Shown piece after piece: positions 1-18,072 of a stretch of DNA of 64,000 nucleotides (position 1 is its first letter; each line of letters begins with the position of its first letter). The DNA lies in contig NZ_CP012982.1 in the NCBI RefSeq assembly GCF_001411495.1, positions 1,550,001 to 1,614,000 of the forward strand, given 5' to 3'. The stretch comes from Burkholderia cepacia ATCC 25416. GTDB taxonomy: Bacteria; Pseudomonadota; Gammaproteobacteria; Burkholderiales; Burkholderiaceae. The translations under genes were made by a program, and so were the position numbers. The notes under the pieces were generated by a model, which had not been told where the DNA came from, made no database searches, and saw nothing but the letters and a program-made list of their open reading frames with translations.

Positions 1-125
1 CGCCGCTTTCGCCGCCGCCGTTGCCACCGCCTTCGCCGTTGCCGCCGTTGCCGCCGCCTCCACCGTTGCCGCCATTGCCGCCATTGCCGCCATTGCCGCC
101 GTTGCCGCCGTTGCCGCCGCCTTCA
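1..125. repeat. 9-nt coding minisatellite (Gly-Gly-Asn linker of the chitinase)
   Basis: Tandem variants of TTGCCGCCG / TTGCCGCCA, read on the minus strand as repeated Gly-Gly-Asn triplets with occasional Glu. A shorter block of the same kind lies at about 318-365 on the other side of the CBM5/12 module. The near-identical 9-nt units are prone to slippage in multiples of nine, which would change linker length without breaking the frame. Confidence 0.85.
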
Positions 126-2779
126 CCGTTGCCGAAGATCGTCCACGCATCGCTCCACGCGAAGCCCTTGCCCGGTTCGTAGGCCGCCGGTGCACCCGAG
201 CACCAGCCGCTGTACGGGAACGGCTTGCACTGGTACAGCTTGCCCTGGTTCGACACGACGTCGCCGGCCTTGTACTGCGTCCCGGCCTTGTAGGCCGGGT
301 ACTGGCCGCCTTCGCCACCGCCGCCGTTGCCGCCACCACCGTTGCCGCCGCCACCATTGCCGCCGCCCGTCTCCGTCGCCTTCACGAGCACCGTGTGCTG
401 AGCGGTGGACGACAGCTTGCCGTCGCCGACCTTGACCGAGAACGTGAACGACTGGTCCTTCGCAAGCTTCGGCGCGGTGAAGCGCAGCGTCGCGCCGGAA
501 GGCTGCACGTCGATGCCGGACGGAGCCGTCCACTGGAACGTCAGCTTGTCGCCGTCCGGATCGGTCGATTTCTCGGCCGACAGGGCCACGGCCTGACCGC
601 CTTCCGCCTGCGCCGGGCCGCTGAGTCGCGCGACCGGCGGACGGTTTTCGGCCGGCGGCGGCTCGACCGACGCTTCGGCCTGCGCGGTCACGACGACCTG
701 CGCGGCACTCTTCAGCCCGGCCGGGTCGGTCACCGTCACGCGGAACGTGTAGCGGGTGTCCTGCTTGACCGCCGGCACGTCGACCGTCGCCTTCGCACTG
801 TCCGGACTGCCGATCTTCAGCGGATCGCCGCCGATCTGTTCCCACTTGAAGGTCAGCTTGTCGCCGTCGGGATCGCGCGACTTCGACGCGTCGAGCGTCA
901 CCGTCTGCGGCCCGGTGACCGTCATGGCCGTCCCCGCGTTCGCGATCGGCGGACGATTCTCCGCGCCGCTTCCGCCGTCGCCGTGGCCAAGACCTTCGTG
1001 CATCGCGTTCAGGATGTCGCCGTTGTCCGCGTCGATTTCCCACGAGAACATGCCGCCGAGCTGGTGCTTGCGCACGTAGTCGCCCTTGGCGTTCACCGAG
1101 CGCGGATCGTCGAACGTGAGGAGTTCGCCGGTGCTCTTGTTGAACACGTACGGCGCCTCGGCCGTCTGGTCGTAGTGGTACTCGTAGCCGTTGATGCCCG
1201 CGTTGTTCGGGCCGATCATCTCCGCCTTGAGCTTCTTGTAGTCGAGAATGCCGGCTTCCCACTGCCCCTTGTGCGGCCCCTTCGCGGTGCCCGTGAACGG
1301 ATTGCCGTCGGTATAGCCCGATACGCCGTTCCAGCCGCGGGCGTATGCCGCCGCGCCGACGACGAGCTTCTTCGGATCGACGCCCTGCGCAAGCAGCGCC
1401 TTGATCGAGTTGTCGGTCGTGTACTTGGTGTCCGGTCGCCATGCGGGCGCGTGCAGTGCCGTCTGGTGACCCAGCTCCGTCAGGCTGAACGCACCGTAGT
1501 AGTCGTACGTCATGTCGAAGATGTAGTCCATGTACTTCGTGGCTTCCTTGTAGTTCACCACGTCGATCTTGTCCTTGCCCGCGCCGATCGCAGACGTCAG
1601 CTCGTAGGTCTTGCCGGTGTCCGCCGACACGCGGTCGAGCATCTGCCGCAGTTCCTTCATCAGCGTCACATACAGCGCGCCGTCCGTCTGCGGATTGCCG
1701 ATCGCGCCGTTCGCGCCCTTGCCGCCCGGGAACTCCCAGTCGATGTCGACGCCGTCGAAGAACTTCCAGGTGCGCAGCAACTGCTCGGTCGAATCGACGA
1801 ACACCTTGCGCTTGGCCGGGTCGTGCAGCTGGAAGAACGGATCGGACAGCGTCCAGCCGCCGATCGACGGCAGGATCTTGAGGTCCGGATTGCGTTTCTT
1901 CGCGGCCATCATCTGGCCAAGCACGCCCTTGAGCTTCGAGTTCGCGGTCTGGCCGGGCAGCGTCATGCCCATCTCGCCCCACGTATCGTGGATCGCCACG
2001 CTGAAGTCGGGCAGCCCCGCGCACGTCTGCTGCAGTGCGCGGAACGAATTCGGCACGTCGCGCGCGAGCGACGCGTTGATGTTCGCTCCGCCGCAGATCG
2101 GCACGAAGCCATACAGCATGTGCGTGAGGTTCTCGACCGGCACGTTGTCGACGTTGAACTTGCGGTCGTAGACCGACCACGTCGCGAAGTAGGTGCCGAC
2201 CACCGAGCCGGACGTGTTCTTGAAACGCTTGTGCGCCTTGCTCGCGTTGTCGGGCAGCGTATCGGCCAGTTCCGGAATCGTGTCGAACACGACCACGTCG
2301 ATCGGCGCGCTGTCCGTCGACGCGCCGTTCGCGTCGATCACCCGGACCTGCATCTTCTTCACGCCCGGCGTCTTGACGTTGGCGATGACGGTGCCGCTCT
2401 GGGTGCCGCCGGGCGTCAGCTTGAGTTCCGACGCGGCATCGACCGCGCCGTCGACCACGGCGACCGCCTTCACGGCCGTTCCGTTGCTCCAGATGTCGAA
2501 CGGCAGCGGCACGTCGACCTTCTTGTTGAGCTTGACGAGGTCCTTGTAGGGCGCGCTGCCCGCTCTCTGCAGATCGATCTCGACGAAACCGTGCGGCTTC
2601 GACGTGATTTCGTATTGCTTGAGACTGGGCTTGCCGGGGGCGGCGAACGCGGCGTTCGCGAAACACAGCGCGCTGGCCGTGGCGATCGTCGCGAATGCAA
2701 GCGTCTGGGTGCGGCCGGATGCAACGCCGATACGCGACGGATTGAGGTTGAGTTTATTCAGGCGCAATTTGATCGTCAT
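1..2779 (-). CDS. secreted modular GH18 chitinase (C-terminus outside window)
   Basis: Endo-type chitin hydrolase predicted to act outside the cell. The reading frame is open from an ATG at 2779 through base 1, so about 926 residues are visible and the C-terminus is missing. Order: signal peptide (about 1-46, ending ANAAFA), an N-terminal beta-rich domain with Ig-like character, a GH18 barrel carrying the catalytic signature DGVDIDWEF (D342, D345, D347, E349), two PKD/Ig-like domains that each begin ENRPP, a Gly/Asn linker, a CBM5/12 chitin-binding module with several aromatic residues, then a second long Gly/Asn linker that leaves the window, so another binding module is likely. The AAGG before the ATG directly abuts it, so a TTG at residue 5 is an alternative start. 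It diverges from the LPMO gene, a classic chitin-degrading pairing. Family assignment is firm; exact substrate range is inference. Confidence 0.93.
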   Translation of the reverse strand, partial: MTIKLRLNKLNLNPSRIGVASGRTQTLAFATIATASALCFANAAFAAPGKPSLKQYEITSKPHGFVEIDLQRAGSAPYKDLVKLNKKVDVPLPFDIWSNGTAVKAVAVVDGAVDAASELKLTPGGTQSGTVIANVKTPGVKKMQVRVIDANGASTDSAPIDVVVFDTIPELADTLPDNASKAHKRFKNTSGSVVGTYFATWSVYDRKFNVDNVPVENLTHMLYGFVPICGGANINASLARDVPNSFRALQQTCAGLPDFSVAIHDTWGEMGMTLPGQTANSKLKGVLGQMMAAKKRNPDLKILPSIGGWTLSDPFFQLHDPAKRKVFVDSTEQLLRTWKFFDGVDIDWEFPGGKGANGAIGNPQTDGALYVTLMKELRQMLDRVSADTGKTYELTSAIGAGKDKIDVVNYKEATKYMDYIFDMTYDYYGAFSLTELGHQTALHAPAWRPDTKYTTDNSIKALLAQGVDPKKLVVGAAAYARGWNGVSGYTDGNPFTGTAKGPHKGQWEAGILDYKKLKAEMIGPNNAGINGYEYHYDQTAEAPYVFNKSTGELLTFDDPRSVNAKGDYVRKHQLGGMFSWEIDADNGDILNAMHEGLGHGDGGSGAENRPPIANAGTAMTVTGPQTVTLDASKSRDPDGDKLTFKWEQIGGDPLKIGSPDSAKATVDVPAVKQDTRYTFRVTVTDPAGLKSAAQVVVTAQAEASVEPPPAENRPPVARLSGPAQAEGGQAVALSAEKSTDPDGDKLTFQWTAPSGIDVQPSGATLRFTAPKLAKDQSFTFSVKVGDGKLSSTAQHTVLVKATETGGGNGGGGNGGGGNGGGGEGGQYPAYKAGTQYKAGDVVSNQGKLYQCKPFPYSGWCSGAPAAYEPGKGFAWSDAWTIFGNGEGGGNGGNGGNGGNGGNGGNGGGGGNGGNGEGGGNGGGESG

Positions 2780-3071: not shown

Positions 3072-4532
3072 ATGAACAAACACACCGCGAGCCGAACGCT
3101 CTTCAAACTTTCGCCGCTGGTCGCGTGCGCATCCATGTTCTTCGCGCAACATGCGTTCGCGCACGGCTACCTCTCCGATCCGCCGTCGCGCAACCTGATG
3201 TGCAGCTCGAAGCAGGGCCCGGCGCAAAACTTCAACTGCGGCTCGGTCACATGGGAACCGCAAAGCGTCGAAGGCAAGCAGGGCTTCCCTCAGGCCGGTG
3301 CGCCCGACGGACAGTTCGCAAGCGGCGGCGTCGTGCAGTTCAGCGAACTGAACGAGCAATCCGTCGACCGCTGGAAAACCAACGACATCAAGCCGGGCGC
3401 GCAGCAGTTCAAGTGGACGTTCACAGCGCCGCACGTGACGAAGAACTTCAAGTACTACCTGACGAAGCAGGGCTGGAACCCGAACCTGCCGCTGACGCGC
3501 GACCAGTTCGACCTGACGCCGTTCTGCACGGTCGACGGCGGCATGCAGAAGGCCGACGCGATCGGGCCGCACAACTGCACGATTCCGTCGGACCGCACCG
3601 GCCATCACGTGATGCTGAGCACGTGGCACGTCGGCGACACGGCCGGCATGTTCTACAACGTGGCCGACCTCAACATCAAGGCGGACGGCGGTCCGACCGA
3701 CCCGGGCAAGCCGAGCTGGTCGTCCGTCGGCACCATCGCGCCGACCGTCGACCTGAAGGCCGGCGACAAGGTCATGAACCGCGTGTTCAAGTCGGGCGGT
3801 GAAGTACCGTCGATGAAGACGACCGTCACGATCGGCACGGCCGAACAGGGTGAACGCAACATGTGGCCGATGCTGCTCGCGAAGGAAATCAACCGCGTGC
3901 AGTCGGCCGGCCTGCTGGCGGGCATCGAGCGCGACGGGCGCATCGAGCCGGGGCTGGGCGCGAACAACGTGTTCGCCAAGAGCGGCAGCGGCATCGTGCG
4001 CACGGAGACGACGGTCGAGAAGAAGCCGGAATCGGGCATCGACGAAGGTTTCAGCGTCACGAGCAACCCGGAATTCAGGATCGAGAACGGCAAGGCCACC
4101 GCGAAGTTCTTCCTGAAGTTCAATCACGCGAAGGACACCAGCGTCACGATGAAGGTGTACGACGCGGCCAATTCGCTGGTCGGCTCGAAGTCGGCAACGA
4201 TGCGGATGCAGGGCGACCTGAGCGTCGACATCGCGAATGCGAAGGCCGGCGCGCACACGGCCGTGGCGACGTCGCAGATCGAAGGCGGCACGCTGAAGCA
4301 GGAAACCGTCACGTTCAAGCTGACCGGCGGCACGGGCGGCGGCGAAGGCGCGCAGTGCCAGGCCGCGTGGAAGCAGGGCACGGCCTATACGGGCGGCGCG
4401 AAGGTGCAGCACAACGGCCGCACCTACGAGGCGCGCTGGTGGACCCAGAACGACGTGCCGGGCTCGCCCGCGACGACCGGCGCCGATCACACCGGCAAGG
4501 TCTGGAAGGATCTCGGCGCATGCAGCAAGTAA
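3072..4532 (+). CDS. gbpA: GbpA-like AA10 lytic polysaccharide monooxygenase
   Basis: Copper enzyme that cleaves crystalline chitin oxidatively and binds chitin. 486 aa. A signal peptide (about 1-30, ending QHAFA) is followed by His31, which becomes the mature N-terminus and with a second His forms the copper-binding histidine brace; HGYLSDPPSR is the typical AA10 beginning. The AA10 domain spans about 31-200, then two GbpA middle domains (about 210-410) and a C-terminal CBM5/12 module (about 425-486) with the AxxWxxGTAYTGGxxV pattern. This is the four-domain layout of Vibrio GbpA. The ATG at 3072 is chosen because it alone gives a clean signal peptide; the frame is open far upstream but lacks coding character. 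It diverges from the chitinase and precedes a secretion operon; GbpA proteins are known type II substrates. Confidence 0.93.
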   Translation: MNKHTASRTLFKLSPLVACASMFFAQHAFAHGYLSDPPSRNLMCSSKQGPAQNFNCGSVTWEPQSVEGKQGFPQAGAPDGQFASGGVVQFSELNEQSVDRWKTNDIKPGAQQFKWTFTAPHVTKNFKYYLTKQGWNPNLPLTRDQFDLTPFCTVDGGMQKADAIGPHNCTIPSDRTGHHVMLSTWHVGDTAGMFYNVADLNIKADGGPTDPGKPSWSSVGTIAPTVDLKAGDKVMNRVFKSGGEVPSMKTTVTIGTAEQGERNMWPMLLAKEINRVQSAGLLAGIERDGRIEPGLGANNVFAKSGSGIVRTETTVEKKPESGIDEGFSVTSNPEFRIENGKATAKFFLKFNHAKDTSVTMKVYDAANSLVGSKSATMRMQGDLSVDIANAKAGAHTAVATSQIEGGTLKQETVTFKLTGGTGGGEGAQCQAAWKQGTAYTGGAKVQHNGRTYEARWWTQNDVPGSPATTGADHTGKVWKDLGACSK

Positions 4533-4802: not shown

Positions 4803-5243
4803 GTGAAATCGAACTATCCGAAATGGACGAAGAAGCGAGGCCAGCGTGGCTTCACCTTGCTCGAATTGCTGGTGGTGCTGCTGATCATCGCGCTGCTGGC
4901 AGGCTATGTCGGCCCGAAACTCTTTTCGCAGGTCGACAAGGCGAAGGTCCGCTCGACCGAATCTCAGATGAAGACGCTCGGCGACGCGGTCACGCAGTTC
5001 AGGCTCGACACGGGCCGCTATCCGAGCGCCGACGAAGGGCTCGATGCGCTGGTCAAGCAGCCGCAGAACACCGACGGGTGGAACGGCCCCTATCTCGCGA
5101 AGGCCGTGCCGAAGGACGGCTGGGGCCGGGCCTATCAGTGGAACGTGCCGGGCCGAGACGGCGAGGCGGAGATCGTGTCGCTCGGTCGGGACGGTCGTGT
5201 CGGAGGGAGCGGCAACGATGCGGACCTCGTCTACGGCATGTAA
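4803..5243 (+). CDS. GspG-like major pseudopilin
   Basis: Major subunit of a type II secretion pseudopilus. 146 aa from a GTG at 4803, with GAGGG a short distance upstream. A short basic leader ends RGQRG, followed by FTLLELLVVLLIIALLAGYV: Gly at -1, Phe at +1 and Glu at +5 are the prepilin peptidase and assembly signals, followed by one N-terminal hydrophobic helix. The C-terminal part carries the GspG pattern DTGRYPSADEGLDALV, WNGPYL and a terminal Asp-rich, calcium-loop-like segment (GSGNDADLVYGM). Of the four pseudopilins here it is the closest to canonical GspG. It overlaps the next gene by 26 nt, the first of a run of overlapping genes. No prepilin peptidase gene lies in the window, so processing must be supplied elsewhere. 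Confidence 0.87.
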   Translation: MKSNYPKWTKKRGQRGFTLLELLVVLLIIALLAGYVGPKLFSQVDKAKVRSTESQMKTLGDAVTQFRLDTGRYPSADEGLDALVKQPQNTDGWNGPYLAKAVPKDGWGRAYQWNVPGRDGEAEIVSLGRDGRVGGSGNDADLVYGM

Positions 5244-5727
5244 GGGCCTGCGTCGCTGGACCGTCGCGGCGGCGATCGCCGTCTGCGCGTCCGGCGCCGC
5301 AGCCAAGGATTGCTTTACCCAGGCAGGCGAGCGGCACGGTATCGATCCCCTCCTGCTCGTCGCGATCGCGAAAGTGGAATCGTCGCTGAATCCTCGCGCG
5401 ATCAATTACAACCGCAACGGCACCTACGACATCGGGCTGATGCAGATCAACAGCTCGCACCTGCCGCGATTGATCAAGACAGGCGTCACGCACGGGCGCC
5501 TGATCAACGAGCCCTGTACGTCGATCGACACCGGCGCGTCGATTCTCGCCGGCTTCATCGAGCGGCACGGCTACACATGGAATGCCGTCGGCGCCTACAA
5601 CGCCGGATCGTCGGCGAAGCGCGAACCGGTGCGCAAATCGTATGCGACCAAGGTCTGGCGCGAGTACCAGACGCTGACCAGCAATCGCGTCGCCAGCTCG
5701 GCGTTGCTCGACGAATGGCGGAGGTAG
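5218..5727 (+). CDS. lytic transglycosylase, SLT family (IagB/VirB1-like)
   Basis: Small periplasmic peptidoglycan lyase of the type that opens the wall for secretion machines. 169 aa. Signal peptide about 1-28 (ending ASGAAA), then the SLT domain with catalytic Glu in IAKVESSLNP, the YDIGLMQINSSH block and AVGAYNAG. It overlaps the gspG-like gene by 26 nt and ends 2 nt before the gspF-like gene, so it is translationally embedded in the operon. Specialised transglycosylases are common in type III, type IV and pilus loci but unusual as an integral part of a type II operon, which helps mark this as a variant system. Confidence 0.88.
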   Translation: MRTSSTACKGLRRWTVAAAIAVCASGAAAKDCFTQAGERHGIDPLLLVAIAKVESSLNPRAINYNRNGTYDIGLMQINSSHLPRLIKTGVTHGRLINEPCTSIDTGASILAGFIERHGYTWNAVGAYNAGSSAKREPVRKSYATKVWREYQTLTSNRVASSALLDEWRR

Positions 5728-5729
5728 CC

Positions 5730-6911
5730 ATGCAATCGTTTCAGGTTCGGGTGCTTGCCGACGGCAAGGTCGCCCTGCAGACGATCGAAGCAGCGAGCGA
5801 AGCGGACGTGCGGGCCCGGATCGCGGCGCAAGGCGGTGTCGCGCTCGACATTCGCCGCGCACGCCTCGCCAGACGCAAGCGCGCACCGAAATTTGCGCTC
5901 GCGCTGTTCCTCCAGGAACTGTCGACGCTGCTCGATGCGGGCCTCGTGCTGATCGAAGCGCTCGAGGCGCTGCGCGACAAGAACGATGCCGGCAAGGCGT
6001 CGAAGCAGGTGATCGACCGGATCCTGTCGGTGATGTATCAGGGGCAGCCGTTATCCGCGGCGCTTGCGCGACAGCCCGACGTCTTTCCGGGGCTGCTCGT
6101 CGCGACGATCGCGTCGTCGGAAGACAGCGGCCAGTTGCCCGCCGTATTGAAGCGCTACCAGCAATACGAAGTGCGGATCGAGCAGATCCGCAAGCGGGTC
6201 ACCGGCGCGCTGATTTATCCGGCGGTCGTGATCGGCGTCGGCATCGCGATCCTGCTGTTCATGGCCTTTTTCGTGATTCCGCGTTTCGCGGTGGTGTTCG
6301 AGTCGCTGACCACGCTGCCGCCGACCGCGCAGGTGATGCTCTGGTGGGCGACCCTGTTGCGCGAGAACGGCGCGGCGGTCGGCATGGCAGCCGCCGCGGC
6401 GGCCGTCGGCGCGGGGCTGGCGGTGCGCTCGGCCGCCGCGAAGCGCGCGGCACAGCGGCTGATGTGGCGGGCGCCGAAGGTGCGCGACGTTTGTGCGCTG
6501 TTCGCCCTGACCCGGTTCTATCGAACCGTCGGACTCCTGATCGCGGGCGGCACGCCCGTGATCGACGCGCTGGAATTGTCCGGCAAGGTGCTGCCCGCGC
6601 ATTTCGGGGCGCGCCTCGCGGCCGCGCTGACCGAGTTGCGTGCCGGACGATCGGTATCGACTGTCTTCGCGGCCCATGCACTGACGACCTCCGTCGCCGA
6701 GCGGCTGCTGCGCGTCGGCGAACAGAGCGGCGACCTGGGCGGAATGTGCGAGCACATCGCGCAGTTCCACGACGGCGCGCTCGACCGGTCGATCGAAATG
6801 ATCAGCAAGGTTTTCGAACCGGTGCTGATGCTCGCGGTCGGCGCAACGGTCGGCGCGGTGGTTCTGCTGCTGTACATGCCGATCTTCGAATTGGCCGGCA
6901 GCGTCGGATAG
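5730..6911 (+). CDS. GspF/PilC-like inner-membrane platform protein
   Basis: Polytopic platform protein that couples the cytoplasmic ATPase to pseudopilus assembly. 393 aa, with GGAGGT 4 nt before the ATG at 5730. A short N-terminal region (about 1-50) is followed by two T2SSF domains with three hydrophobic segments, around 160-190 (VTGALIYPAVVIGVGIAILL), 210-240 and 365-385. Conserved family features include FLQELSTLLDAGLVLIEAL at the start of the first domain and RFYRTVGLLIAGGTPVIDAL at the start of the second. Length is normal for GspF. It lies between the transglycosylase and the ATPase, in the usual close association of F and E. Confidence 0.9.
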   Translation: MQSFQVRVLADGKVALQTIEAASEADVRARIAAQGGVALDIRRARLARRKRAPKFALALFLQELSTLLDAGLVLIEALEALRDKNDAGKASKQVIDRILSVMYQGQPLSAALARQPDVFPGLLVATIASSEDSGQLPAVLKRYQQYEVRIEQIRKRVTGALIYPAVVIGVGIAILLFMAFFVIPRFAVVFESLTTLPPTAQVMLWWATLLRENGAAVGMAAAAAAVGAGLAVRSAAAKRAAQRLMWRAPKVRDVCALFALTRFYRTVGLLIAGGTPVIDALELSGKVLPAHFGARLAAALTELRAGRSVSTVFAAHALTTSVAERLLRVGEQSGDLGGMCEHIAQFHDGALDRSIEMISKVFEPVLMLAVGATVGAVVLLLYMPIFELAGSVG

Positions 6912-6965
6912 CGGCCCCGGCCGGCCAGATGCCCGCCTTCCCGCTTCCCAACTGGAGAATTCAAG

Positions 6966-8580
<1,615 letters not shown>

Positions 8581-8600
<20 letters not shown>

Positions 8601-9351
8601 CGTCACCGTGCTGATCGACGCCGATACGCTGCACGTCCGGGCGCATGAAAGCCGGCGCGCACGGCGCACCGGTGCACCGCTCGCCGTCGTCGCCCACGAG
8701 GGCCGGCCGGCCGACGCGCTCGCGCAGGTGCTCGCCGGCCTGCCGAAAGCGCGCCTGCCGATGCGCAACCGCCTCCACGTCGTCGTCGGGCATCCGTGGT
8801 CGCACGGCGTGGTGCTGCCCTGGCAGGAAGGCCTGGTGTCGGACGCCGCGTGGGATGCGTATGCCCGCATGCTGTTCGCCGCGCGCGCGCAGCGCGGTGC
8901 GTTGCGCATCCTCATCGAGGACGAACGGCGCGGCCGCGCGCGCCTTGCGGTCGCGGCCTGCGACGAACTCCTCGCGGCGCTCGTCGACGCGAGCCGCGCG
9001 GCCGGCTGGCGGCTCGCCAGCTTCCGCGACGCGCTGTCGGCGTCGCTCGCCTCGCACGCCGCCCGGCTGGTCGGCGACGATTTCCGCTTCGCGCTTCGCC
9101 AGCCGCACGTCGTGACGTGCATTTTCCGGCGTTCGGGCGAATGGGCCGACATCGTCACGTTGCCGCGCGCCGGCGACCGCCCCGACGACTGGTTCGCCGC
9201 GGCGGCGCTGATCGCCGGGCAGCCGGCCTGCGGCGACGCGCATGCATGCCGGTTCGACGGCTCGATGCTCGCCGATGGCGACGCGGCGTGCGCGCCGACG
9301 GATGGCCGCACGGCCGAACCGATGGATGTCGCGGCGGAGGATCCGGCATGA
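8581..9351 (+). CDS. PilM/GspL-N-like cytoplasmic assembly protein (divergent)
   Basis: 256 aa from a GTG at 8581 that overlaps the ATPase gene by 20 nt. No signal peptide or membrane segment is seen. The position, directly before PilN- and PilO-like genes, and the actin-like beginning (VTVLIDADTLHVRAHE) suggest the counterpart of PilM or of the cytoplasmic domain of GspL, which links the ATPase to the inner-membrane assembly complex. Sequence similarity that I can recognise is weak, and the last about 40 residues are low-complexity. The next gene begins in an ATGA overlap, so translation is probably coupled. Confidence 0.6.
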
Positions 9352-9878
9352 AGCGCCTGTCGGAACTGAACTTCGCCGCGCCGCGCACGCGCCTGACGCC
9401 GTGGGCCGGCATCGCGCTGTGCTGCGCGCTGGCTGCCGGGCTCTTCGCCGGCAGCGAATGGAACCGCGTCGAAGCACTGCGTGACGATGTCGAGCAGGTC
9501 GAGAAGCGCATCGAGCAGCGTCAGCGCGTCATCGAGCGCGAACAGCGGCGGGAGAAGGCCAAGACGCCCGAGCAGCGGCGCATCGAGCGCGTGCTGGCCG
9601 AACAGACGATGACCGACAAGGGATCCGGCCTGTCGGTGATCGACTGGATCGAGCACGCCTGGACCCCACAGATCGCGCTGAAGTCGCTGACGGTGGACAA
9701 GGCGGGCCGCGAGGCGCGCATCGAAGGCGGTGCCGCGGAGCTGTCGCACGTCTACCTGTTCGTCGACCGCCTGCACGACCGCCATCCGGACCGCATGATC
9801 GGCCTGCTCCAGCATCGGATGAAGACCGAGGACGGCAAGGCCATTTTTCACTTCAGCCTGAGCATCGAACATCCATGA
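9348..9878 (+). CDS. PilN/GspL-C-like inner-membrane protein
   Basis: 176 aa, ATG at 9348 preceded by GGAGG. A short cytoplasmic N-terminus with a PilN-like motif (LNFAAPR, compare the INLLPWR type), one membrane segment (about 18-36), a charged coiled coil (about 38-85, rich in Glu, Arg and Gln) and a ferredoxin-like periplasmic domain. This is the PilN/MshI2/GspL-C layout: a bitopic protein pairing with the PilO-like product of the next gene. ATGA overlaps at both ends show tight coupling with its neighbours. Confidence 0.72.
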   Translation: MKRLSELNFAAPRTRLTPWAGIALCCALAAGLFAGSEWNRVEALRDDVEQVEKRIEQRQRVIEREQRREKAKTPEQRRIERVLAEQTMTDKGSGLSVIDWIEHAWTPQIALKSLTVDKAGREARIEGGAAELSHVYLFVDRLHDRHPDRMIGLLQHRMKTEDGKAIFHFSLSIEHP

Positions 9879-10429
9879 CCCACCTGAATGCAATCGACAA
9901 AACGGCGCTTGCTGCGCAGTTGCGCTGGGGGCGCTATGTCGCGACCCGCAAGCTCGGCGTGCCCGGGCTGCTGGCGGCCGGCGCGGTCGTCGCCCTGCTC
10001 GGCCTGCACGCGCTTTATATCCAACCGGGCGGCGCGCGACTCGACGCGACGCGCGGCGCGCTCGCCAAGGATCTGGCCGCGCTGCCCAAGCCCGGCCCGA
10101 AGGCCGGCGACGGCGGCATGACGCTGCACGACGTCCAGCAGCTGCGCAGCCGCGAGCAGGCGTATTCGCTGTTCGAGATCCTGTCGCAGAACGGCCTGGA
10201 ACGGAAGCACGCGACCTACCGGCGCGAGGCCGAGGTGAAGGGCAAGCTGCGACGGCTCACGATCAGCATCGCGCTGAGCGGCAGCTACGCCGGATTGCGC
10301 GAAGCGATGCGGAAAATCGCCGACCAGCCGATGGTGCGTATCGAGAGCGTCACGATCGAGCGCGAAAAGATCGACAGCCCCGTCGTCAACGTCGATCTGC
10401 GGGTCAGCCTGCTGGGGCCCGACGCATGA
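9875..10429 (+). CDS. PilO/GspM-like inner-membrane protein
   Basis: 184 aa. One membrane segment (about 27-49), a periplasmic helix, then a ferredoxin-like fold with the segment SGSYAGLREAMRKIADQP that is characteristic of PilO/MshJ/GspM proteins, and a final beta strand (VVNVDLRVSLLGPDA). It probably forms a heterodimer with the PilN-like protein and contacts the secretin through the following PilP/GspC-like protein. Overlaps of 4 nt on both sides. Confidence 0.75.
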   Translation: MTHLNAIDKTALAAQLRWGRYVATRKLGVPGLLAAGAVVALLGLHALYIQPGGARLDATRGALAKDLAALPKPGPKAGDGGMTLHDVQQLRSREQAYSLFEILSQNGLERKHATYRREAEVKGKLRRLTISIALSGSYAGLREAMRKIADQPMVRIESVTIEREKIDSPVVNVDLRVSLLGPDA

Positions 10430-10896
10430 TGCGCCGCACCTTCATACGCGTCGCGGCGGCGCTGGCCGTTGCCGCCTCAGGCGGCAGCCTGGCGCACGAG
10501 TCCGTCGGCCAGCCGAGCATCGTCGACGTGTTCCCGGCCCAAAGCTGGGTGTCGCTCGGCGCGGAAGACGCGCCCCCCGCCACGCCCGCCCCTGTCGAGC
10601 CGCCCGCGGCGGAGCCGCCAGCGCTGAGCGATCCGATCGACGCCGCCGCCGCGCCGCCGATGCCGTTCGAGATTGCCGGCGAATGGCGCACGCAAGGGCA
10701 GCGCATCGTCGTGCTGGAAGGCGACGGCAAGACATTCCTGCTGTGCGGACGCCGCTGCGGCGTCCGCGATGCCGTATTGCCGGGCGGCGAGATCGCCGAC
10801 GGCTACCGGCTGAAAACGCTGGGCGAAACAGGTCCGGTCGTCATGACCCGAAACGGCTCGGACATCGAGCTGTCGCCGCCGTCGCCGACCCATTGA
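10426..10896 (+). CDS. PilP/GspC-like periplasmic connector
   Basis: 156 aa. Signal peptide (about 1-24), then a Pro/Ala-rich flexible stretch (about 48-78) and a compact C-terminal beta domain (about 82-150) resembling the homology region shared by GspC, PilP and MshK. A closely spaced Cys pair (CGRRC) could form a disulfide, an unusual detail. By position it should connect the PilN/PilO-like complex to the secretin encoded next. The family call is from order and architecture more than from sequence. Confidence 0.6.
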   Translation: MMRRTFIRVAAALAVAASGGSLAHESVGQPSIVDVFPAQSWVSLGAEDAPPATPAPVEPPAAEPPALSDPIDAAAAPPMPFEIAGEWRTQGQRIVVLEGDGKTFLLCGRRCGVRDAVLPGGEIADGYRLKTLGETGPVVMTRNGSDIELSPPSPTH

Positions 10897-10924
10897 ATTG
10901 CGAATCGAACTTCTATCGAACACC

Positions 10925-13201
10925 ATGATGAAACGAACCATCAGTCTATTGATCCTGACCTCGGCGCTGGCGCTGGCGGGATGCTCGAGCCTCCCGGCCG
11001 GCAGCCCGTCCGCCGCCGGGACATCCGCCGAACGCCTCGGCACGCTCCAGCAGCAGAAGGAAGCCGCACCGGAAGACATCCGGATCGCCACTTCCCTCGA
11101 ACTCACGCGGCAGGAATACGTGCGCGCCGAGCTGAAGGCCGCCGACCGGCAAAACGCGCAGGGCAACCACAGCGCGGCGATCGACCACCTGAACAACGTG
11201 CTGGCCGAGGACGCCGGCAATCTGCGCGCCCGCCAGGAACTCGAGCAGGTCAAGCGCCGCCAGCAAATGGCGGTCGAGCTGTCGCGCGCACAGCGCATCC
11301 GCGGCGAGCAGCCGCAGGAGGCCCTCGAGATCGCGCGGCGCATCCTTGCCGAACAGCCGAACCACGCGGAAGCCAAGCGGCTGCGCGATGCGCTGCTGCG
11401 CGCGTCGCAGGCGAGCCGTCCCGTGCGCCCGCAACTGTCCGACGCGCTGCGCAAGCCGGTTTCGCTCAATTTCAAGCAGCAGCCGATGTCGAACATCTTC
11501 GACGTGATCTCGCGCGTGTCCGGCGTGAACTTCGTGTTCGACCGCGACGTCGATACCAACCAGCCCGCCACGCTGTTCGCCGAGCGCACCACCGCCGAGG
11601 ATGCGATCAACCTGCTGCTGCGCACGAACCAGCTCGAGAAGAAGGTGCTCGACAAGCACACGCTGCTCGTCTATCCGTCGCAGCCCGAGAAAAGCCGCAC
11701 CTATACCGAGTTCGCGCTGCGCACCTTCTTCCTGTCGCACGCGGACGCGAAATCGGTGATGGCGGCCCTGCGCCAGATGATCAAGCCGAAGGACATCTAC
11801 GTGGACGAGCGCGTCAACGCGGTCGTCCTGCGCGACACGCCCGAAACGATCCAGGTGGCCGAGCGCGTCGTGATGGGGCTGGACATCCCCCAGTCCGAAG
11901 TCACGCTCGACGTGCAGGTGCTGGAGGTCAACATGAACGACAGCCTCGATCTCGGCATCCAGTACCCGGGCCGCGTGCAGTTCGGCGCGCTCGGCGGCGC
12001 GGAGGGCGCGGCGCTGACGCTCGGCGACCTGCTGCGCCTGAACCGCGACCGGATCGGCGTATCCAGCGAATCCGGCGCGCTGTCGCTCGCGATCGACACG
12101 CTGCAGAAGCAGGGCAAGACCAAGACGCTCGCGAATCCGAAGATCCGCGTACGCAACATGGAGAAGGCCAACATCAAGATCGGCGAACGCGTGCCGATCG
12201 TCACGACCACGAACGCCAACGGCGTCGTCACGGAATCCGTCAGCTACCAGGACGTCGGCCTGATGCTGAAGGTGGAGCCGCGCATCAGCCTCGACGACGA
12301 GGTCAGCGTGAAGGTCAACATGGAAGTCAGCAGCATCCTGTCGAAGGAAACGACCAAGACCGGCCTCGTCGCCTATTCGCTCGGGACGCGCAACGCGGAA
12401 ACCCTGATGACCGCGCGAAACGGCGAAACGCAGATCCTCGCCGGCCTCGTCAAGCGCAACGAGATCGAGAACGTCTCGGGTCTGCCCGGCGTGTCGGGCC
12501 TGCCCGTCGTCGGCCGCCTGTTCGGCTCGAACGGCCGCAGCAACGAGCGCTCGGAAATCGTGCTGCTGATTACCCCGCACATCGAGCGCAACCTCGACCT
12601 GCCGACGTCGGCCGTCACCACGTTCCTGTCGGGGACCGAGACGCGCGTGACGACCGAGGCGCTGACGCTCGAATCCGCATCGGCCGCGCCGGCCCCGAGG
12701 GCTTCGTCGGCTTCGTCGAACGGCCCGGATCTCGATGCGCCGATCGAACCGGCGGCACCCGTCGCGAACGCCGCGCCTGCCGCGCAACCGGGCCCGGACG
12801 AGGCCGTCGATACCGCGCAGGGCGCTGAAGCCTCCCCGGCCGAAGAATCGGGCGACGCCGGGGCCGTATCGGGCAGGCCCGCGATGAAAGGCGGCAGCAT
12901 GATGCGTGTGCGTGCGGAAGCGGCCGCGTTGCCGCTGCCTCGCGCGCATGCGATCGAGCCCGCCTCGGCCACGCGTGCCGTGCCGCCGCCGAAGGCCGAG
13001 GCCGCCGTCGTCGCGGCGGCGGACCTGCCGGCCGACGTGGCGGCGTCCGCGACCGAAAAGCGCGGGCTGCTGGCCATGGTGCGCTCGCTGATCGGCTCGC
13101 TGGTGTCGTTCATGGCGTCCGTCAACGGCGGCGCCGTGCCCGGATCGACCCTGCACGCCGACGCGTCCGGACGGCTGGCCAGCCGCTGGAGCGTCGCATG
13201 A
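10925..13201 (+). CDS. outer-membrane secretin lipoprotein (GspD/MshL type) with long C-terminal tail
   Basis: Outer-membrane channel. 758 aa. Lipoprotein signal with Cys20 (LALAGC), so it may be its own pilotin. Residues about 60-155 look like TPR-type helical repeats, an arrangement found in some MshL/PilQ-like secretins. Next come periplasmic N domains (about 175-300: PVSLNFKQQPMSNIFDVIS) and the secretin core (about 310-555), with VPIVTTT, VGLMLKVEPRI and the closing IVLLITPHI. An Ala/Pro-rich, apparently disordered tail of about 200 residues follows, ending in a hydrophobic stretch (about 715-735, LLAMVRSLIGSLVSFMASV). Canonical secretins end soon after the core or with a short pilotin-binding S-domain, so this tail is odd. 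Two adjacent ATGs (10925, 10928) are possible starts. It overlaps the next pseudopilin gene by 4 nt. Confidence 0.9.
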   Translation: MMKRTISLLILTSALALAGCSSLPAGSPSAAGTSAERLGTLQQQKEAAPEDIRIATSLELTRQEYVRAELKAADRQNAQGNHSAAIDHLNNVLAEDAGNLRARQELEQVKRRQQMAVELSRAQRIRGEQPQEALEIARRILAEQPNHAEAKRLRDALLRASQASRPVRPQLSDALRKPVSLNFKQQPMSNIFDVISRVSGVNFVFDRDVDTNQPATLFAERTTAEDAINLLLRTNQLEKKVLDKHTLLVYPSQPEKSRTYTEFALRTFFLSHADAKSVMAALRQMIKPKDIYVDERVNAVVLRDTPETIQVAERVVMGLDIPQSEVTLDVQVLEVNMNDSLDLGIQYPGRVQFGALGGAEGAALTLGDLLRLNRDRIGVSSESGALSLAIDTLQKQGKTKTLANPKIRVRNMEKANIKIGERVPIVTTTNANGVVTESVSYQDVGLMLKVEPRISLDDEVSVKVNMEVSSILSKETTKTGLVAYSLGTRNAETLMTARNGETQILAGLVKRNEIENVSGLPGVSGLPVVGRLFGSNGRSNERSEIVLLITPHIERNLDLPTSAVTTFLSGTETRVTTEALTLESASAAPAPRASSASSNGPDLDAPIEPAAPVANAAPAAQPGPDEAVDTAQGAEASPAEESGDAGAVSGRPAMKGGSMMRVRAEAAALPLPRAHAIEPASATRAVPPPKAEAAVVAAADLPADVAASATEKRGLLAMVRSLIGSLVSFMASVNGGAVPGSTLHADASGRLASRWSVA

Positions 13202-13686
13202 GCGCCGCACGGCGCCGCCGCGCGCGCGGCTTCACGCTGATCGAGATGATGGTCGCGCTGACGCTGCTTGCGCTGCTCGCCACCGTCGCCTTGCCGCTGA
13301 CCGATCTCGCCAGGCGCCGCGCCGACGAAACCGAGCTGCGCCGCGCGCTGGTCGTCATCCGGTCGGCGCTCGATGCCTACAAGGCGGCGGCCGGCGAAGG
13401 ACGGATCGAGCACAGCGCCGACGCGAGCGGCTATCCGCCGGATCTGCGCACGCTGGTCGAGGGCGTCGAGGACAAGACGTCCCCGAACGGCGCGCGGCTG
13501 TATTTCCTGCGCAAGATTCCCGCCGATCCGATGTGCGAATGCGACGGCAAGGCGCCCGACGAGATGTGGGAAACGCGCAGTTACGCGAGCGATCCGGCAT
13601 CCTTTTCGTCGGGCGATGACGTGTTCGACATCCGTTCCACCAACCGCAAGGAGGGCATCAATGGCGTCCCGTACAACCAATGGTAG
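13198..13686 (+). CDS. GspG/H-type pseudopilin
   Basis: 162 aa. Leader ending RRARG, then FTLIEMMVALTLLALLATV: Gly -1, Phe +1 and Glu +5 are intact. The rest includes an amphipathic helix (ADETELRRALVVIRSALDAYK) and a globular domain with a Cys pair (MCECDG) that could bind metal or form a disulfide. It overlaps the secretin gene by 4 nt and the next pseudopilin by 26 nt. It is one of three pseudopilins encoded after the secretin; which of the H, I or J positions it fills cannot be read from sequence alone. Confidence 0.82.
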   Translation: MSAARRRRARGFTLIEMMVALTLLALLATVALPLTDLARRRADETELRRALVVIRSALDAYKAAAGEGRIEHSADASGYPPDLRTLVEGVEDKTSPNGARLYFLRKIPADPMCECDGKAPDEMWETRSYASDPASFSSGDDVFDIRSTNRKEGINGVPYNQW

Positions 13687-14056
13687 ACGTGCGCGTCGCA
13701 CCGCCGGCTTCACGCTCGTCGAACTGCTCGTCGTCATGGCGATCATCGCGGCGCTGACCGCGTTCGTCGCACCCGGCTATCTGAAGCAGGGCGACCGCGC
13801 GAAGGAAACCGTGCTGCGCCACAACCTGAATACGCTGCGCCAGTCGATCGACGATTATCGCGCCGACCACGGCCGCGACCCGGCCTCGCTCGAGGCGCTC
13901 GTCGAAAATCGCTACCTGCGCGAAGTGCCGCTCGACCCGGTGACGGGCAAGCGCAATTCGTGGCGCCCTCTGGCCGGCGACAGCGGCGGCGTGGCCGACA
14001 TCAAGAGCGGCGCAAAGGGAAACGCGCTCGACGGAAGCAGCTATGAGACGTGGTAA
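13661..14056 (+). CDS. short GspG-like pseudopilin
   Basis: 131 aa from an ATG at 13661 with AAGGAGG upstream, inside the end of the preceding gene. Leader ending RRTAG, then FTLVELLVVMAIIAALTAFV with Glu +5. A short globular part follows with DYRADHGRDPASLEALVENRYL and LPxDPVTGK-like features typical of GspG/PilE-like minor subunits. It overlaps the next gene by 14 nt. Confidence 0.82.
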   Translation: MASRTTNGRRARRTAGFTLVELLVVMAIIAALTAFVAPGYLKQGDRAKETVLRHNLNTLRQSIDDYRADHGRDPASLEALVENRYLREVPLDPVTGKRNSWRPLAGDSGGVADIKSGAKGNALDGSSYETW

Positions 14057-14576
14057 CCTGCGGCAACGCCCGCGCACCCAACGCGGCATCGCGTATCTCG
14101 GCGTGCTGATGCTCGTCGCGGCGCTCGGCCTCGGGATGACCGAGGCAACGCGCATCTGGAGCACCGTTCAGCAACGCGACCGCGAAGCCGAGCTGCTGTT
14201 CGTCGGCGACCAGTATCGCGCGGCGATCGAACGCTACTACGGCGCAGCGGGGCAAAACCGCTATCCCGAGTCGCTCGACGCGTTGCTGGAGGATCGCCGG
14301 ACCTTGCCGACCCAGCGCCATTTGCGACGCCTGTATGCCGACCCGCTGACCGGGTCGACCCGATGGGGGCTCGTGAAGGCGCCGGACGGCGGCATCATGG
14401 GCGTGTTCAGCGAAGCGGCCGGCCGGCCGCTGAAACGCCAGGGGTTCCCGGTCCGCTACGAGTCGTTCGGCGACCGCGACACGTATGGCGAATGGATTTT
14501 CGTTTACCTGCCGCCGGCGCCCGGCGACGGTGCTGCAAACGCGGCCGGCACGTCGGCAACCGGAGCCGCACACTGA
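14043..14576 (+). CDS. minor pseudopilin lacking Glu+5 (GspK-like position)
   Basis: 177 aa. A basic leader ends RTQRG, followed by IAYLGVLMLVAALGLGM, so position +5 is Gly instead of Glu. In type II systems GspK, the tip subunit, is the pseudopilin that naturally lacks Glu+5, but GspK is about 300 aa; this protein is much shorter. A helix (REAELLFVGDQYRAAIERYY) leads into a small domain with RRLYADPLTG, the pattern of MshO/PilE-like minor pilins. It may start or cap the fibre. The end is Ala/Gly-rich. Confidence 0.72.
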   Translation: MRRGNLRQRPRTQRGIAYLGVLMLVAALGLGMTEATRIWSTVQQRDREAELLFVGDQYRAAIERYYGAAGQNRYPESLDALLEDRRTLPTQRHLRRLYADPLTGSTRWGLVKAPDGGIMGVFSEAAGRPLKRQGFPVRYESFGDRDTYGEWIFVYLPPAPGDGAANAAGTSATGAAH

Positions 14577-14589
14577 AAGCGGAAACAAC

Positions 14590-15273
14590 ATGATCGTTGC
14601 AATCCTGGAAGACATCGTGACGCAGGCGGGTGTCGTGGCCCGCTGGCTGGAGAAGGCCGGCTACGAAACCGAGGTCCGTCACGACGGCGAGAGCTTCGTC
14701 GAACTGGTACGCTCGACGCGCGTCGACGTGCTGCTGCTCGACTGGGACGTACCCGGCATGTCGGGCATCGACGTGATGCGCTGGGCGCGCGATTCGTTCG
14801 CCGACGCGCTGCCGATCATCATGATGACGCAGCACGACGGCGAGGACGACATCGTGTTCGGCCTCAACAATGGCGCCGACGATTATCTCGTCAAGCCGCT
14901 GCGCGAACGCGAACTGATCGCGCGCGTGAGCGCCCAGGCGCGGAAGTACTATCCGGAAACGCAGCGGGCGAAGATCGTCGAGGTCGGGAAATTCGCGCTC
15001 GACACCGGTACGCACGTCGCCACCGTGGACGGCGCGCCCGTCGAGCTGGCCCGGCGCGAGTTCGATCTCGCGCTGATGCTGTTCGAGAGTGTCGGCCGGA
15101 TCGTGTCGAAGGACATGATGATCAAGCACGTATGGGGCGTCGTCGACCGGAAATACGACGCGACGCTGGCGACCTACGTGAGCAAGCTGCGCAGGAGTCT
15201 CGGGCTGCGGCCGAAGAACGGGCTCGTCATCACGACGATCTACAACTACGGGTACCGGCTCGAGCGGACCTGA
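14590..15273 (+). CDS. orphan OmpR/PhoB-family response regulator
   Basis: Two-component transcription factor. 227 aa. Receiver domain (about 1-120) with acidic pocket E7/D8, phospho-acceptor D51 (LLLDWDVPG), T80 and K102 all present, followed by a winged-helix DNA-binding domain (about 128-225) ending in the typical TTIYNYGYRLE. It starts 13 nt after the last pseudopilin gene, after a purine-rich GAAAC stretch, and is clearly in the operon. No histidine kinase gene is adjacent, so its signal comes from elsewhere or it works without one. A conserved motif occurs before the chitinase/LPMO pair, before this operon and just after this gene, making it the best candidate for their regulator. Confidence 0.9.
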   Translation: MIVAILEDIVTQAGVVARWLEKAGYETEVRHDGESFVELVRSTRVDVLLLDWDVPGMSGIDVMRWARDSFADALPIIMMTQHDGEDDIVFGLNNGADDYLVKPLRERELIARVSAQARKYYPETQRAKIVEVGKFALDTGTHVATVDGAPVELARREFDLALMLFESVGRIVSKDMMIKHVWGVVDRKYDATLATYVSKLRRSLGLRPKNGLVITTIYNYGYRLERT

Positions 15274-15435: not shown

Positions 15436-15987
15436 ATGTCTTCCGTTTCCCTGCCGCACGTGCGGCACCGATCACCCCAGGTCCGCCGATACGATCGGCT
15501 CTCCCGCGCGATGCACTGGATCTTCGCGGCCATCATTCTCTACACGATGGTTGCCGGCATCTCGCTTCACTTCATCACGCAACCGGCGATCTGGGGCTTC
15601 GTGTCGACGCTCAACATGTCGCTCGCGACCTGCCTGATCGCGCTGTTTCCACTGCGGTATCTCTGGTCGTTCTTCCGCAAGGCGCCGCCGGATCTTCAGT
15701 CGATTCCGGAAAAGCAACGTGCGGTCGCGCATCTGGTGCATTCGCTGATCTATACGCTCATCGCCGTGGTCCTCGTGAGCGGCTACCTGATGGTGCCCGA
15801 AGGGTACTGGCTGTTCTGGACGGTATTCGTGAAGACGCCGTTCTCGGCAGGGCCGGTGACGGAGCACTGGTTCGCCCTCCACAAGATCGCCTGCTACACG
15901 CTGGCGGCCCTGGTGGCGGCGCATGCCGGTGCCGCGCTCAAGCATCATTTCGTGTCGAAGAACGATGTGTTGAAGCGCATGCTGTGA
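15436..15987 (+). CDS. cytochrome b561 family membrane haem protein
   Basis: Inner-membrane di-haem electron carrier, commonly oxidising quinol or handling superoxide. 183 aa with four predicted helices and the expected haem ligands: His27 in the first helix (RAMHWIF), a His in the AHLVHSLIYTLIAV helix, and His residues in HWFALHKIACYTL and near the C-terminus. AAGGA precedes the ATG by 9 nt. It follows the response regulator on the same strand but has its own upstream region carrying site C. Because LPMOs need an electron donor, co-location is suggestive, but this protein faces the periplasm from the inner membrane and a direct role is speculative. Confidence 0.88.
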   Translation: MSSVSLPHVRHRSPQVRRYDRLSRAMHWIFAAIILYTMVAGISLHFITQPAIWGFVSTLNMSLATCLIALFPLRYLWSFFRKAPPDLQSIPEKQRAVAHLVHSLIYTLIAVVLVSGYLMVPEGYWLFWTVFVKTPFSAGPVTEHWFALHKIACYTLAALVAAHAGAALKHHFVSKNDVLKRML

Positions 15988-16866: not shown

Positions 16867-18072
16867 ATGCAAGACACTCAACAGCATGACGCCGTCGATG
16901 TTTTCGTCGGCGTTGACGTCGGTAAGGGCCAGCATCACGCTGTTGCACTCGATCGAAATGGCAAGCGTCTGTACAACAAAGCGCTGCCCAACGATGAGGC
17001 CAAGCTGCGCGCCCTCATCGCCGAACTCAAGACTCATGGTCGACTCCTGTTCGTCGTCGATCAGCCTTCCACCATCGGAGCGCTGCCAGTGGCCGTCGCT
17101 CGCGCTGAAGGCGTGCTCGTCGCCTATCTGCCGGGACTGGCCATGCGCCGCATCGCCGATCTGCACGCAGGTGAAGCCAAGACCGATGCCCGCGATGCCG
17201 CGATCATTGCCGAAGCCGCCCGCTCGATGCCGCATACGCTGCGCTCGCTTCGATTGGCTGACGAGCAACTCGCCGAGCTCACCATGCTGTGCGGCTTCGA
17301 CGATGATCTCGCCGCTCAGGTCACTCAAACCAGCAACCGCATTCGCGGCCTGCTTACCCAGATCCATCCAGCGCTCGAGCGCGTTCTCGGACCGCGCCTC
17401 GACCATCCGGCGGTGCTCGATCTGCTTGAGCGCTACCCGTCGCCCGCCGCGCTTGCCTCAACCAGCGAGAAGACGCTCGCCAACCGCCTGACTAAGCTCG
17501 CGCCGCGCATGGGCAAGAGCTTGGCGGCCGAGATCGTTCAGGCTCTGAGCGAACAAGCCGTGACCGTGCCCGGCACGCAAGCTGCCACCATCGTCATGCC
17601 TCGTTTGGCCCAGCAGCTTGCGGCCTTGCGTAAGCAGCGCGACGAGGTCGCTGCCGAAGTGGAACAGCTGGTGCTTGCTCACCCTCTTTGGCCGGTCCTG
17701 ACCAGCATGCCGGGAGTCGGCGTCAGGACCGCTGCCAGACTCCTGACCGAAGTCGCCCATAAAGCCTTCGCCTCCGCCGCGCATCTGGCGGCCTACGCAG
17801 GCCTCGCGCCGGTCACCCGGCGCTCAGGATCGTCGATCCGTGGCGAGCACCCATCTAGACGGGGCAACAAGGTGCTCAAGCGCGCCTTGTTCCTATCCGC
17901 CTTCGCGGCCTTACGAGACCCAGTCTCACGGGCCTATTACTCCCGCAAGATCCAGCAGGGCAAGCGCCACAACCAAGCGCTCATCGCGCTGGCGCGGCGA
18001 CGCTGCGACGTCCTGTTCGCCATGCTGCGTGACGGAACCATTTACCAACCCAAGTCAGCCCCTAACGCTTGA
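16867..18072 (+). CDS. IS110-family transposase (DEDD recombinase)
   Basis: 401 aa, ATG at 16867. The N-terminal DEDD RuvC-like domain begins VFVGVDVGKGQHHAVAL, with further acidic residues in LLFVVDQPS and KTDARDAAIIAEAA. The C-terminal Tnp_20 domain (about 275-375) has MPGVGVRTAARLL, AAYAGLAPVTRRSGSS, which carries the catalytic Ser region, and GNKVLKRALFLSAFAAL. Full length for the family, with no frameshift, so the element may be active. Codon use is slightly less GC-biased than in the neighbours, consistent with a mobile gene. Confidence 0.93.
   Translation: MQDTQQHDAVDVFVGVDVGKGQHHAVALDRNGKRLYNKALPNDEAKLRALIAELKTHGRLLFVVDQPSTIGALPVAVARAEGVLVAYLPGLAMRRIADLHAGEAKTDARDAAIIAEAARSMPHTLRSLRLADEQLAELTMLCGFDDDLAAQVTQTSNRIRGLLTQIHPALERVLGPRLDHPAVLDLLERYPSPAALASTSEKTLANRLTKLAPRMGKSLAAEIVQALSEQAVTVPGTQAATIVMPRLAQQLAALRKQRDEVAAEVEQLVLAHPLWPVLTSMPGVGVRTAARLLTEVAHKAFASAAHLAAYAGLAPVTRRSGSSIRGEHPSRRGNKVLKRALFLSAFAALRDPVSRAYYSRKIQQGKRHNQALIALARRRCDVLFAMLRDGTIYQPKSAPNA

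Follow-up and report, generated by a model that had tools for sequence, protein, structure and literature searches.

The window analysed here comprises 64,000 nucleotides of Burkholderia cepacia ATCC 25416 (contig NZ_CP012982.1, positions 1,550,001 to 1,614,000, or G000:C2:1550001-1614000 in the numbering used below for genomes, G, and loci, L) and belongs to a genome of 8.6 Mb. It carries an operon of 13 plus-strand genes (4803-15273) encoding, in the order G, LT, F, E, M, N, O, P, D, pp1, pp2, pp3 and RR, a machine that resembles a type II secretion system (T2SS), next to genes for an AA10 lytic polysaccharide monooxygenase (LPMO) and a GH18 chitinase. The machine is found beside chitin enzymes in nearly all close relatives examined and is probably a dedicated T2SS-like apparatus that exports the neighbouring LPMO or chitinase. 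A first-pass annotation of this DNA had suggested a dedicated chitinolytic secretion machine, and the linkage described in the next section favours that proposal.

Linkage of the machine to chitin enzymes

Within the genus, 65 genomes were searched for the ATPase, the LPMO and the GH18 enzyme. The identity thresholds of 66% for the ATPase, 76% for the LPMO and 71% for the chitinase are reached in 16, 14 and 15 of them, respectively. All 14 LPMO genomes and all 15 chitinase genomes lie within the 16, with the genes on the same stretch, and neither enzyme is found at those identities in the remaining genomes of the 65 searched. The two enzymes occur together in 14 of the 16; of the remaining two Burkholderia genomes, G005 has instead an AA10 of divergent sequence and G047 GH18 only. 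A wider search covered a 398-genome subset of a larger group; outside the genus, 34 of them match the ATPase at E <= 1e-143. All 34 loci were taken and the sample was not selected by linkage; GH18 or AA10 lies within ~8.5 kb of the ATPase in 28 of them. Five of the six loci that have neither enzyme fall outside the window's subclade, and L192 (Pandoraea G220) alone falls inside.

In a first ATPase tree (105 rows; quick IQ-TREE search, SH-aLRT support only, midpoint root), the 39 chitin-linked rows form one group with an SH-aLRT of 100. In an enlarged tree of 114 rows, the subclade holds 47 rows, namely 46 with AA10 and/or GH18 nearby together with L192, while profiles place AA10 or GH18 near none of the other 38 family rows, several of which lie on short contigs (e.g. 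L061 and L071, <8 kb). The profiles behind these negative calls derive from sequences of the loci themselves, seven for AA10 and four for GH18, and would not pick up GH19 or further types of chitin enzyme. The enlarged tree omits 11 rows of the first (eight near-identical Burkholderia loci and the long branches L158, L097 and L045), as well as five family loci from genomes already represented. The same group, with 29 linked loci and L192, is recovered with a support of 100 in a secretin tree of 82 rows, from which loci without a usable secretin open reading frame and eight near-identical Burkholderia loci were left out. Fisher p-values for the linkage (2e-12, 8e-14 and 2e-23) ignore relatedness and were not relied on. 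A locus occurring mostly without chitinase or LPMO neighbours, the outcome that the first-pass annotation had opposed to its proposal, is thus not what the 46 linked loci out of 47 display. The same count bears on the notion that the machine secretes something else, such as a surface protein, and that the chitin genes are merely co-regulated neighbours. Other clades of the family do have other neighbours, among them a protein with PPC, TIG and RHS-type repeats and a MauG-like peroxidase; however, the gene lists inspected contain no alternative cargo-like gene that recurs across all branches, and this notion can be given hardly any credence.

Changes of enzyme type and position

The enzyme that accompanies the machine is not always the same. 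AA10 lies directly upstream of G in Trinickia, Pandoraea, Pseudomonas and G005, and in L133 it is found instead ~8 kb from E. GH18 is upstream in Lysobacter, Caballeronia, Cupriavidus and a Sphingomonas metagenome-assembled genome (MAG), and behind pp3 in Herbaspirillum, so that the position of the enzyme varies too (upstream, downstream or divergent). Over the 39 rows of the ATPase tree, three changes of AA10 and two of GH18 are counted. That enzyme type and place change while linkage stays argues for selection on the linkage itself. Neighbours were checked with Pfam in the window and in L052, L054, L055, L058, L075, L086, L091, L129, L028, L062, L069, L133 and L065, and by profile in the others. 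The neighbour in L028, which had been taken for a chitinase from BLAST, proved by Pfam to be an AA10 protein with PKD-CBM modules.

These changes also bear on the idea that the machine is an ordinary diverged T2SS and the chitin genes a frozen, co-inherited island. The gene neighbourhood is indeed well conserved within the genus, and a single origin on the tree suffices for the linkage. A frozen island would nevertheless retain one enzyme, whereas enzyme family, orientation and operon side all vary here, and E, D and F fall well under the canonical T2SS cut-offs; an explanation of this kind is therefore very improbable. The catalytic motif DxxDxDxE is kept in the GH18 protein of 38 of the 42 GH18-bearing loci (54 loci examined). 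GH18-like proteins of ~930 amino acids, in which the motif reads DGINLQWL/DGINLEWL, are encoded at L065:5320-8154 and L069:5355-8132, and their sequences suggest that they are probably chitin-binding rather than hydrolytic.

Separation from canonical T2SS and MSHA systems

The most robust result of the trees described below is that the family stands apart from canonical T2SS and MSHA. The window's E scores 474 bits against the GspE model TIGR02533 (cut-off 630) and D scores 157 against the GspD model TIGR02517 (cut-off 351), whereas the canonical copies of the same genome reach 757 and 692, respectively; F remains at 232 against TIGR02120 (GspF, cut-off 424). D is likewise below the MshL cut-off (TIGR02519, 103 against 250), and the scores obtained with the type IVa pilus models stay under the cut-offs of those models (442 against 676 for PilB, 152 against 284 for PilQ). 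The exception is G, which passes the GspG model TIGR01710 with 151.4 bits for a cut-off of 88.85. The GspH, GspI and GspJ models of NCBIfam, run on pp1 alone, match it below cut-off only. No fused GspL accompanied by GspM and GspC is found in the operon, where M (actin-like), N, O and P (HR-like) are separate.

In the first ATPase tree, the window's system forms a single group of 75 rows (SH-aLRT 100) with clade B, a second Burkholderia system, and clade C, the loci of other genomes that are mostly betaproteobacterial by title. Neither canonical GspE nor the MshL-linked ATPases belong to this group, and the MshL-linked, canonical and PilB labels do not each make a single clade. The family is again one group in the secretin tree (63 rows, 100), and 12 MshL-type secretins make up a group of their own (100). 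Long branches occur in both the ATPase and secretin trees, and their deep branching order is not trustworthy. As a side observation, clade B (L032, L033, L038-L044) shows 45-49% ATPase identity and lies in the genus, with no chitin genes found; in L032 its neighbours include genes for a histidine kinase and for a SCO1/SenC-like protein.

The first-pass annotation had described the operon as an MSHA hybrid. In the MSHA pilus, separate small membrane proteins take the place of GspC, GspL and GspM, as in the window, and E shares with it an MshEN domain. The hybrid was rejected on the scores and on both trees, in which the MshL-linked loci stand apart from the window's ATPase and secretin. The gene order is, as that annotation had stated, unlike that of gsp or msh operons. 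Its counter-case, a phylogenetic position inside T2SS or type IV pili combined with a second gsp operon, holds for the latter half: E and D are outside those groups, and a full gsp cluster is present in the genome. The 'secretion system X' of the SEED subsystems is probably this family.

Comparison with described systems

The comparisons that follow draw on excerpts of the cited papers. The closest description found in terms of layout concerns Ralstonia solanacearum, in which two unorthodox T2SS clusters of ~9-10 kb have seven core genes each; in the chromosomal cluster, gspE and gspD are separated by four hypothetical genes, where the window has M-N-O-P (PMC5080846). Compared by description only, the window agrees, with about seven gsp-like core genes and four unannotated ones between E and D. 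By contrast with the Ralstonia systems, the lytic transglycosylase, the regulator and the chitin cargo are features of the window's subclade. L069, on a contig titled Ralstonia sp., lies inside the clade, and the R. solanacearum loci are known here from their descriptions. A 'secretion system X' similar to that of R. solanacearum has been named for Paraburkholderia nodosa (PMC5095457).

A canonical T2SS linked to a GbpA-like protein is also known from Yersinia, where the Yts1 system is linked to ChiY and secretes it; a cytochrome b-type gene is near in Yersinia, and a b561 gene in the Pseudomonas counterparts (PMC3521999). Unlike Yts1, which is encoded by a gsp-type cluster (yts1C-S), the window has E and D of another branch, a split GspL and a lytic transglycosylase. 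The T2SS of Mycetohabitans (B.) rhizoxinica, likewise from Burkholderiaceae, secretes a chitinase, a chitosanase and a chitin-binding protein, and differs in that its 12-kb gsp cluster is canonical and includes gspC and gspD (PMC4166002). Finally, the machine resembles the type IV filament systems that Denise et al. 2019 label 'generic', a residual class rather than a functional family, in having an ATPase, a platform, a major pilin and a secretin while scoring under the cut-offs for T2SS (E, F, D), PilB/PilQ and MshL (PMC6668835).

Genomes without canonical GspE and GspD

A GspE above the canonical cut-off is present in 33 of the 39 machine-bearing genomes. The six below it are G242, G126 and G195 (Pandoraea), G649 (P. 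laurylsulfatiphila), G652 (Herbaspirillum sp. SJZ106) and G659, a 2.3-Mb Sphingomonas MAG that is probably incomplete. No GspD reaches the canonical cut-off in the first five either, whereas one does in G000, G047 and G112. All five combine the machine with a linked chitin gene, and this gene is the only AA10/GH18 match of the genome in G126 and G649 (AA10) and in G652 (GH18), G195 and G242 each having an additional unlinked GH18. Provided that the enzymes use a T2SS-like route, the machine is the candidate exporter in these five genomes.

This result has to be set against the possibility that the enzymes exit via the canonical gsp T2SS and that the co-regulated neighbouring machine builds a chitin-binding or DNA-uptake pilus. 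Such a division of labour would fit with the canonical gsp cluster carried by the window's genome (L047), with the secretion of chitinases by canonical T2SSs in Mycetohabitans (B. rhizoxinica) and Janthinobacterium (PMC4166002, PMC10470514), and with the MshEN domain of E and the proximity of PilB-type ATPases, the weakly supported nearest neighbours of the family. It is weakened by the five genomes lacking GspE and GspD above the cut-offs, by a G that exceeds the GspG equivalog cut-off, by the position of the family apart from PilB and MshL-linked rows (100), and by the operon itself, in which Pfam and NCBIfam scans led to no recognised adhesin-like or separate PilT-type gene. The score of G and its C-terminal loop suggest that the machine's own filament is a pseudopilus and not a surface pilus. 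A pilus, which the first-pass annotation had offered in chitin-binding or competence-like form, is less likely, and its combination with canonical export is unlikely.

Dedicated export is preferred, with several observations weighing against it in addition to the canonical T2SS of the window's genome and the chitinases secreted by such systems elsewhere. L192 keeps the machine in a genome (G220) with no AA10 or GH18 match at all; its close kin L062 has a b561 gene and an LPMO at the corresponding place, so that a loss of the chitin gene is likely in L192. In four loci (L065, L069, L141 and L188), including contigs titled Cupriavidus and Ralstonia, GH18 is without DxxDxDxE. The Foldseek match of P is weak (E-value 0.13, none at 0.001 or better). 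Six PilB-type rows are the nearest neighbour of the family in the first ATPase tree, with weak support (83), a very short branch and a midpoint root. The trees are quick searches without bootstraps, and the labels of the first were chosen with linkage known. Lastly, the five genomes all carry other, lower-scoring ATPases and secretins (for example 519 bits in G649 and 526 in G126), some of these ATPases being PilB-like by length, and completeness is given for the Pandoraea genomes only (100), not for G649 and G652.

Components of the operon

The chitinase gene (2-2779, minus strand) extends past the window start to -181 and encodes ChitinaseA_N, GH18, PKD repeats and CBM5/12, with DGVDIDWE as the catalytic motif; in the part inside the window, GH18 and PKD are over the Pfam cut-off and CBM5/12 is slightly below. 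It is followed by the GbpA-like AA10 LPMO (3072-4532, plus strand; Pfam), in which LPMO_10 starts at His31 after an N-terminus resembling a signal peptide and is joined by GbpA_2 and CBM5/12. The LPMO gene lies upstream of the operon and ends 270 bp before G. The 12 junctions between the operon genes measure -26, 2, 54, -20, -4, -4, -4, 28, -4, -26, -14 and 13 bp; the first-pass annotation was right as to order and strand in describing mostly overlapping genes, of which it had counted 12 where there are 13 with the response regulator.

Its GspG-, GspF- and GspE-like proteins and its built-in lytic transglycosylase are retained. G (4803-5243) is a GspG-type major pseudopilin (TIGR01710) whose C-terminal loop, SLGRDGRVGGSGNDAD, is kept in most relatives and missing in L062 and L192; we take it to be the calcium loop of GspG. 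LT (5218-5727) belongs to the SLT family of lytic transglycosylases (PF01464) and has a signal-peptide-like N-terminus. It is matched by tblastn in 27 of 28 A1 loci, 0 of 26 A2 loci and 4 of 40 B/C loci and, being absent from A2, is not required by every chitin-linked machine. F (5730-6911) is a GspF/PilC-type inner-membrane platform protein (T2SSF), and E (6966-8600) an assembly ATPase in which the MshEN N-terminus precedes T2SSE, with the Walker A motif GPTGSGKS and CATC/CDTC pairs. D (10925-13201) is a secretin with STN, Secretin_N and Secretin domains, TPR matches below threshold and an N-terminus that looks lipoprotein-like by eye. The minor pseudopilins pp1 (13198-13686, GFTLIE) and pp2 (13661-14056, GFTLVE) both match N_methyl (PF07963). 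The pseudopilin-like pp3 (14043-14576) starts with GIAYLG, lacks Glu5 and obtained no match in the Pfam scan; its sequence suggests a GspK-like tip subunit, and homologues occur in 27 of 28 A1, 25 of 26 A2 and 39 of 40 B/C loci.

Predicted folds of M, N, O and P

M, N and P match no Pfam family above cut-off, and the sole Pfam match of O is PilO, below threshold. The AlphaFold model of M (8581-9351), built from 29 sequences, has a pLDDT of 86 and a pTM of 0.82, and Foldseek relates it to the actin-like proteins FtsA and PilM as well as to the cytoplasmic domain of GspL from V. cholerae and V. vulnificus, with E-values down to 6e-9 and TM-scores of ~0.3-0.5. M is thus modelled as an actin-like PilM/GspL fold, here as a free-standing counterpart of PilM or of the GspL cytoplasmic domain. 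The model of P (10426-10896; 23 sequences) consists of a low-confidence N-terminal part, presumably a linker, and a confident beta domain at residues ~81-150. Its top PDB match is the HR domain of GspC from enterotoxigenic Escherichia coli (3oss_C; probability 1.00, TM 0.75 by target length, E-value 0.13), PilP (2ivw, probability 0.91) ranking fourth. A cysteine pair, C107/C111 (Cx2-3C), is invariant in the HR-like domain of all 23 aligned sequences; no such pair is known in GspC or PilP. Among 5.8 billion proteins, the named relatives of M and P are annotated as hypothetical or uncharacterised, except for one 'lipoprotein' (P0060).

N (9348-9878), with one N-terminal hydrophobic stretch and a coiled coil, weakly matches the GspM model (22 against a cut-off of 60). 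Position, length and such weak matches suggest that N is the counterpart of PilN or of periplasmic GspL, and O (9875-10429) that of PilO/GspM. The PilM/N/O/P-like set that the first-pass annotation had seen in place of GspC, GspL and GspM is thereby upheld, by fold for M and P and by position, length and weak matches for N and O. Taken together, the set gives the impression of a GspL divided between M and N and accompanied by GspM- and GspC-like parts.

Regulation and prepilin processing

RR (14590-15273) is an OmpR-type response regulator with Response_reg and Trans_reg_C domains (Pfam), which the first-pass annotation had called an orphan. A CHASE2-HisKA-HATPase histidine kinase is encoded just outside the window, at -2633 to -321 (G000:C2:1547367-1549679), and sixteen further genomes have homologues (tblastn, 32-99% identity) close to the system, namely G062, G046, G010, G021, G053, G011, G045, G007, G012, G013, G075, G014, G328, Trinickia (G112), G047 and, weakly, Pandoraea commovens. 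In G047 the kinase gene directly follows the response regulator, which makes the two a probable pair; the partner of RR is thus probably the CHASE2 kinase, and RR is probably not an orphan. The kinase was not matched at E <= 1e-30 in the DNA around the G005, Herbaspirillum and Pseudomonas loci, and the G078 contig stops shortly beyond the chitinase. The absence of a prepilin peptidase, noted in the first-pass annotation, holds at the locus and not genome-wide: one is encoded elsewhere (L048:6958-7806, PF01478 and PF06750), beside PilC/PilB-like genes.

Proposed mechanism and wider family

RR and the CHASE2 kinase would together turn the locus on. The LPMO and the chitinase would cross the inner membrane by means of their signal peptides and fold in the periplasm. 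Coupled via M to N/O and F, the ATPase E would build a GspG-type pseudopilus capped by pp1-pp3, its prepilins being cut by the prepilin peptidase encoded elsewhere. P would join the inner-membrane complex to the secretin through its HR-like domain, the lytic transglycosylase would open the cell wall for the machine, and the cargo would exit through D. In this scheme, secretion itself, the identity of the cargo, the regulation of the locus and what N, O, P, LT and b561 do are all predicted.

A broader and more tentative reading, on the doubtful side of even, makes the family a separate type IV filament branch of single-cargo machines with a split GspL. The window's subclade would then be chitin-specialised and able to replace the canonical T2SS (Pandoraea, Herbaspirillum, Pseudomonas), with AA10 and GH18 interchanging, and other clades would serve other private cargos. 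In clade C, L144, L186 and L197 adjoin a large protein, possibly one such cargo. It has 1,727 amino acids with PPC, TIG and RHS-type repeats in L144 and at least 1,772 in L197, where it runs off the end of the stretch; a di-haem CCP/MauG peroxidase is encoded alongside in L186.

If export by this machine is confirmed, Burkholderia, Pandoraea and some pseudomonads attack chitin via a machine of their own. A cargo and a function would be proposed for part of the unorthodox T2SS class, for which none is given in the excerpt of PMC5080846, and the few linked cargos, with AA10 and GH18 interchangeable, would offer a simple system for the study of T2SS-like substrate recognition. Three features seem to be new: a subclade devoted to chitin, a cargo that switches type within it, and genomes in which the machine occurs with no GspE or GspD above the canonical cut-offs. 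No description of this chitin-linked machine was recognised among the literature matches listed, in the portions of text they provide. A 2026 review of Burkholderia secretion systems treats the canonical T2SS only, in the parts available (PMC13391677), and the two chitinase 'biosynthesis and transport' loci mentioned for Collimonas, which date from a 2008 paper, could overlap with this machine (PMC4690342).

Genes downstream of the operon

A cytochrome b561-like protein (15436-15987, plus strand; Pfam) is encoded downstream of the regulator. It is loosely linked to the machine, with matches in 8 of 28 A1 loci, and a role as electron supply for the LPMO is possible, if speculative. Between this gene and a dapF-like gene lies, at 16867-18072, a gene that by eye resembles an IS110-type transposase.

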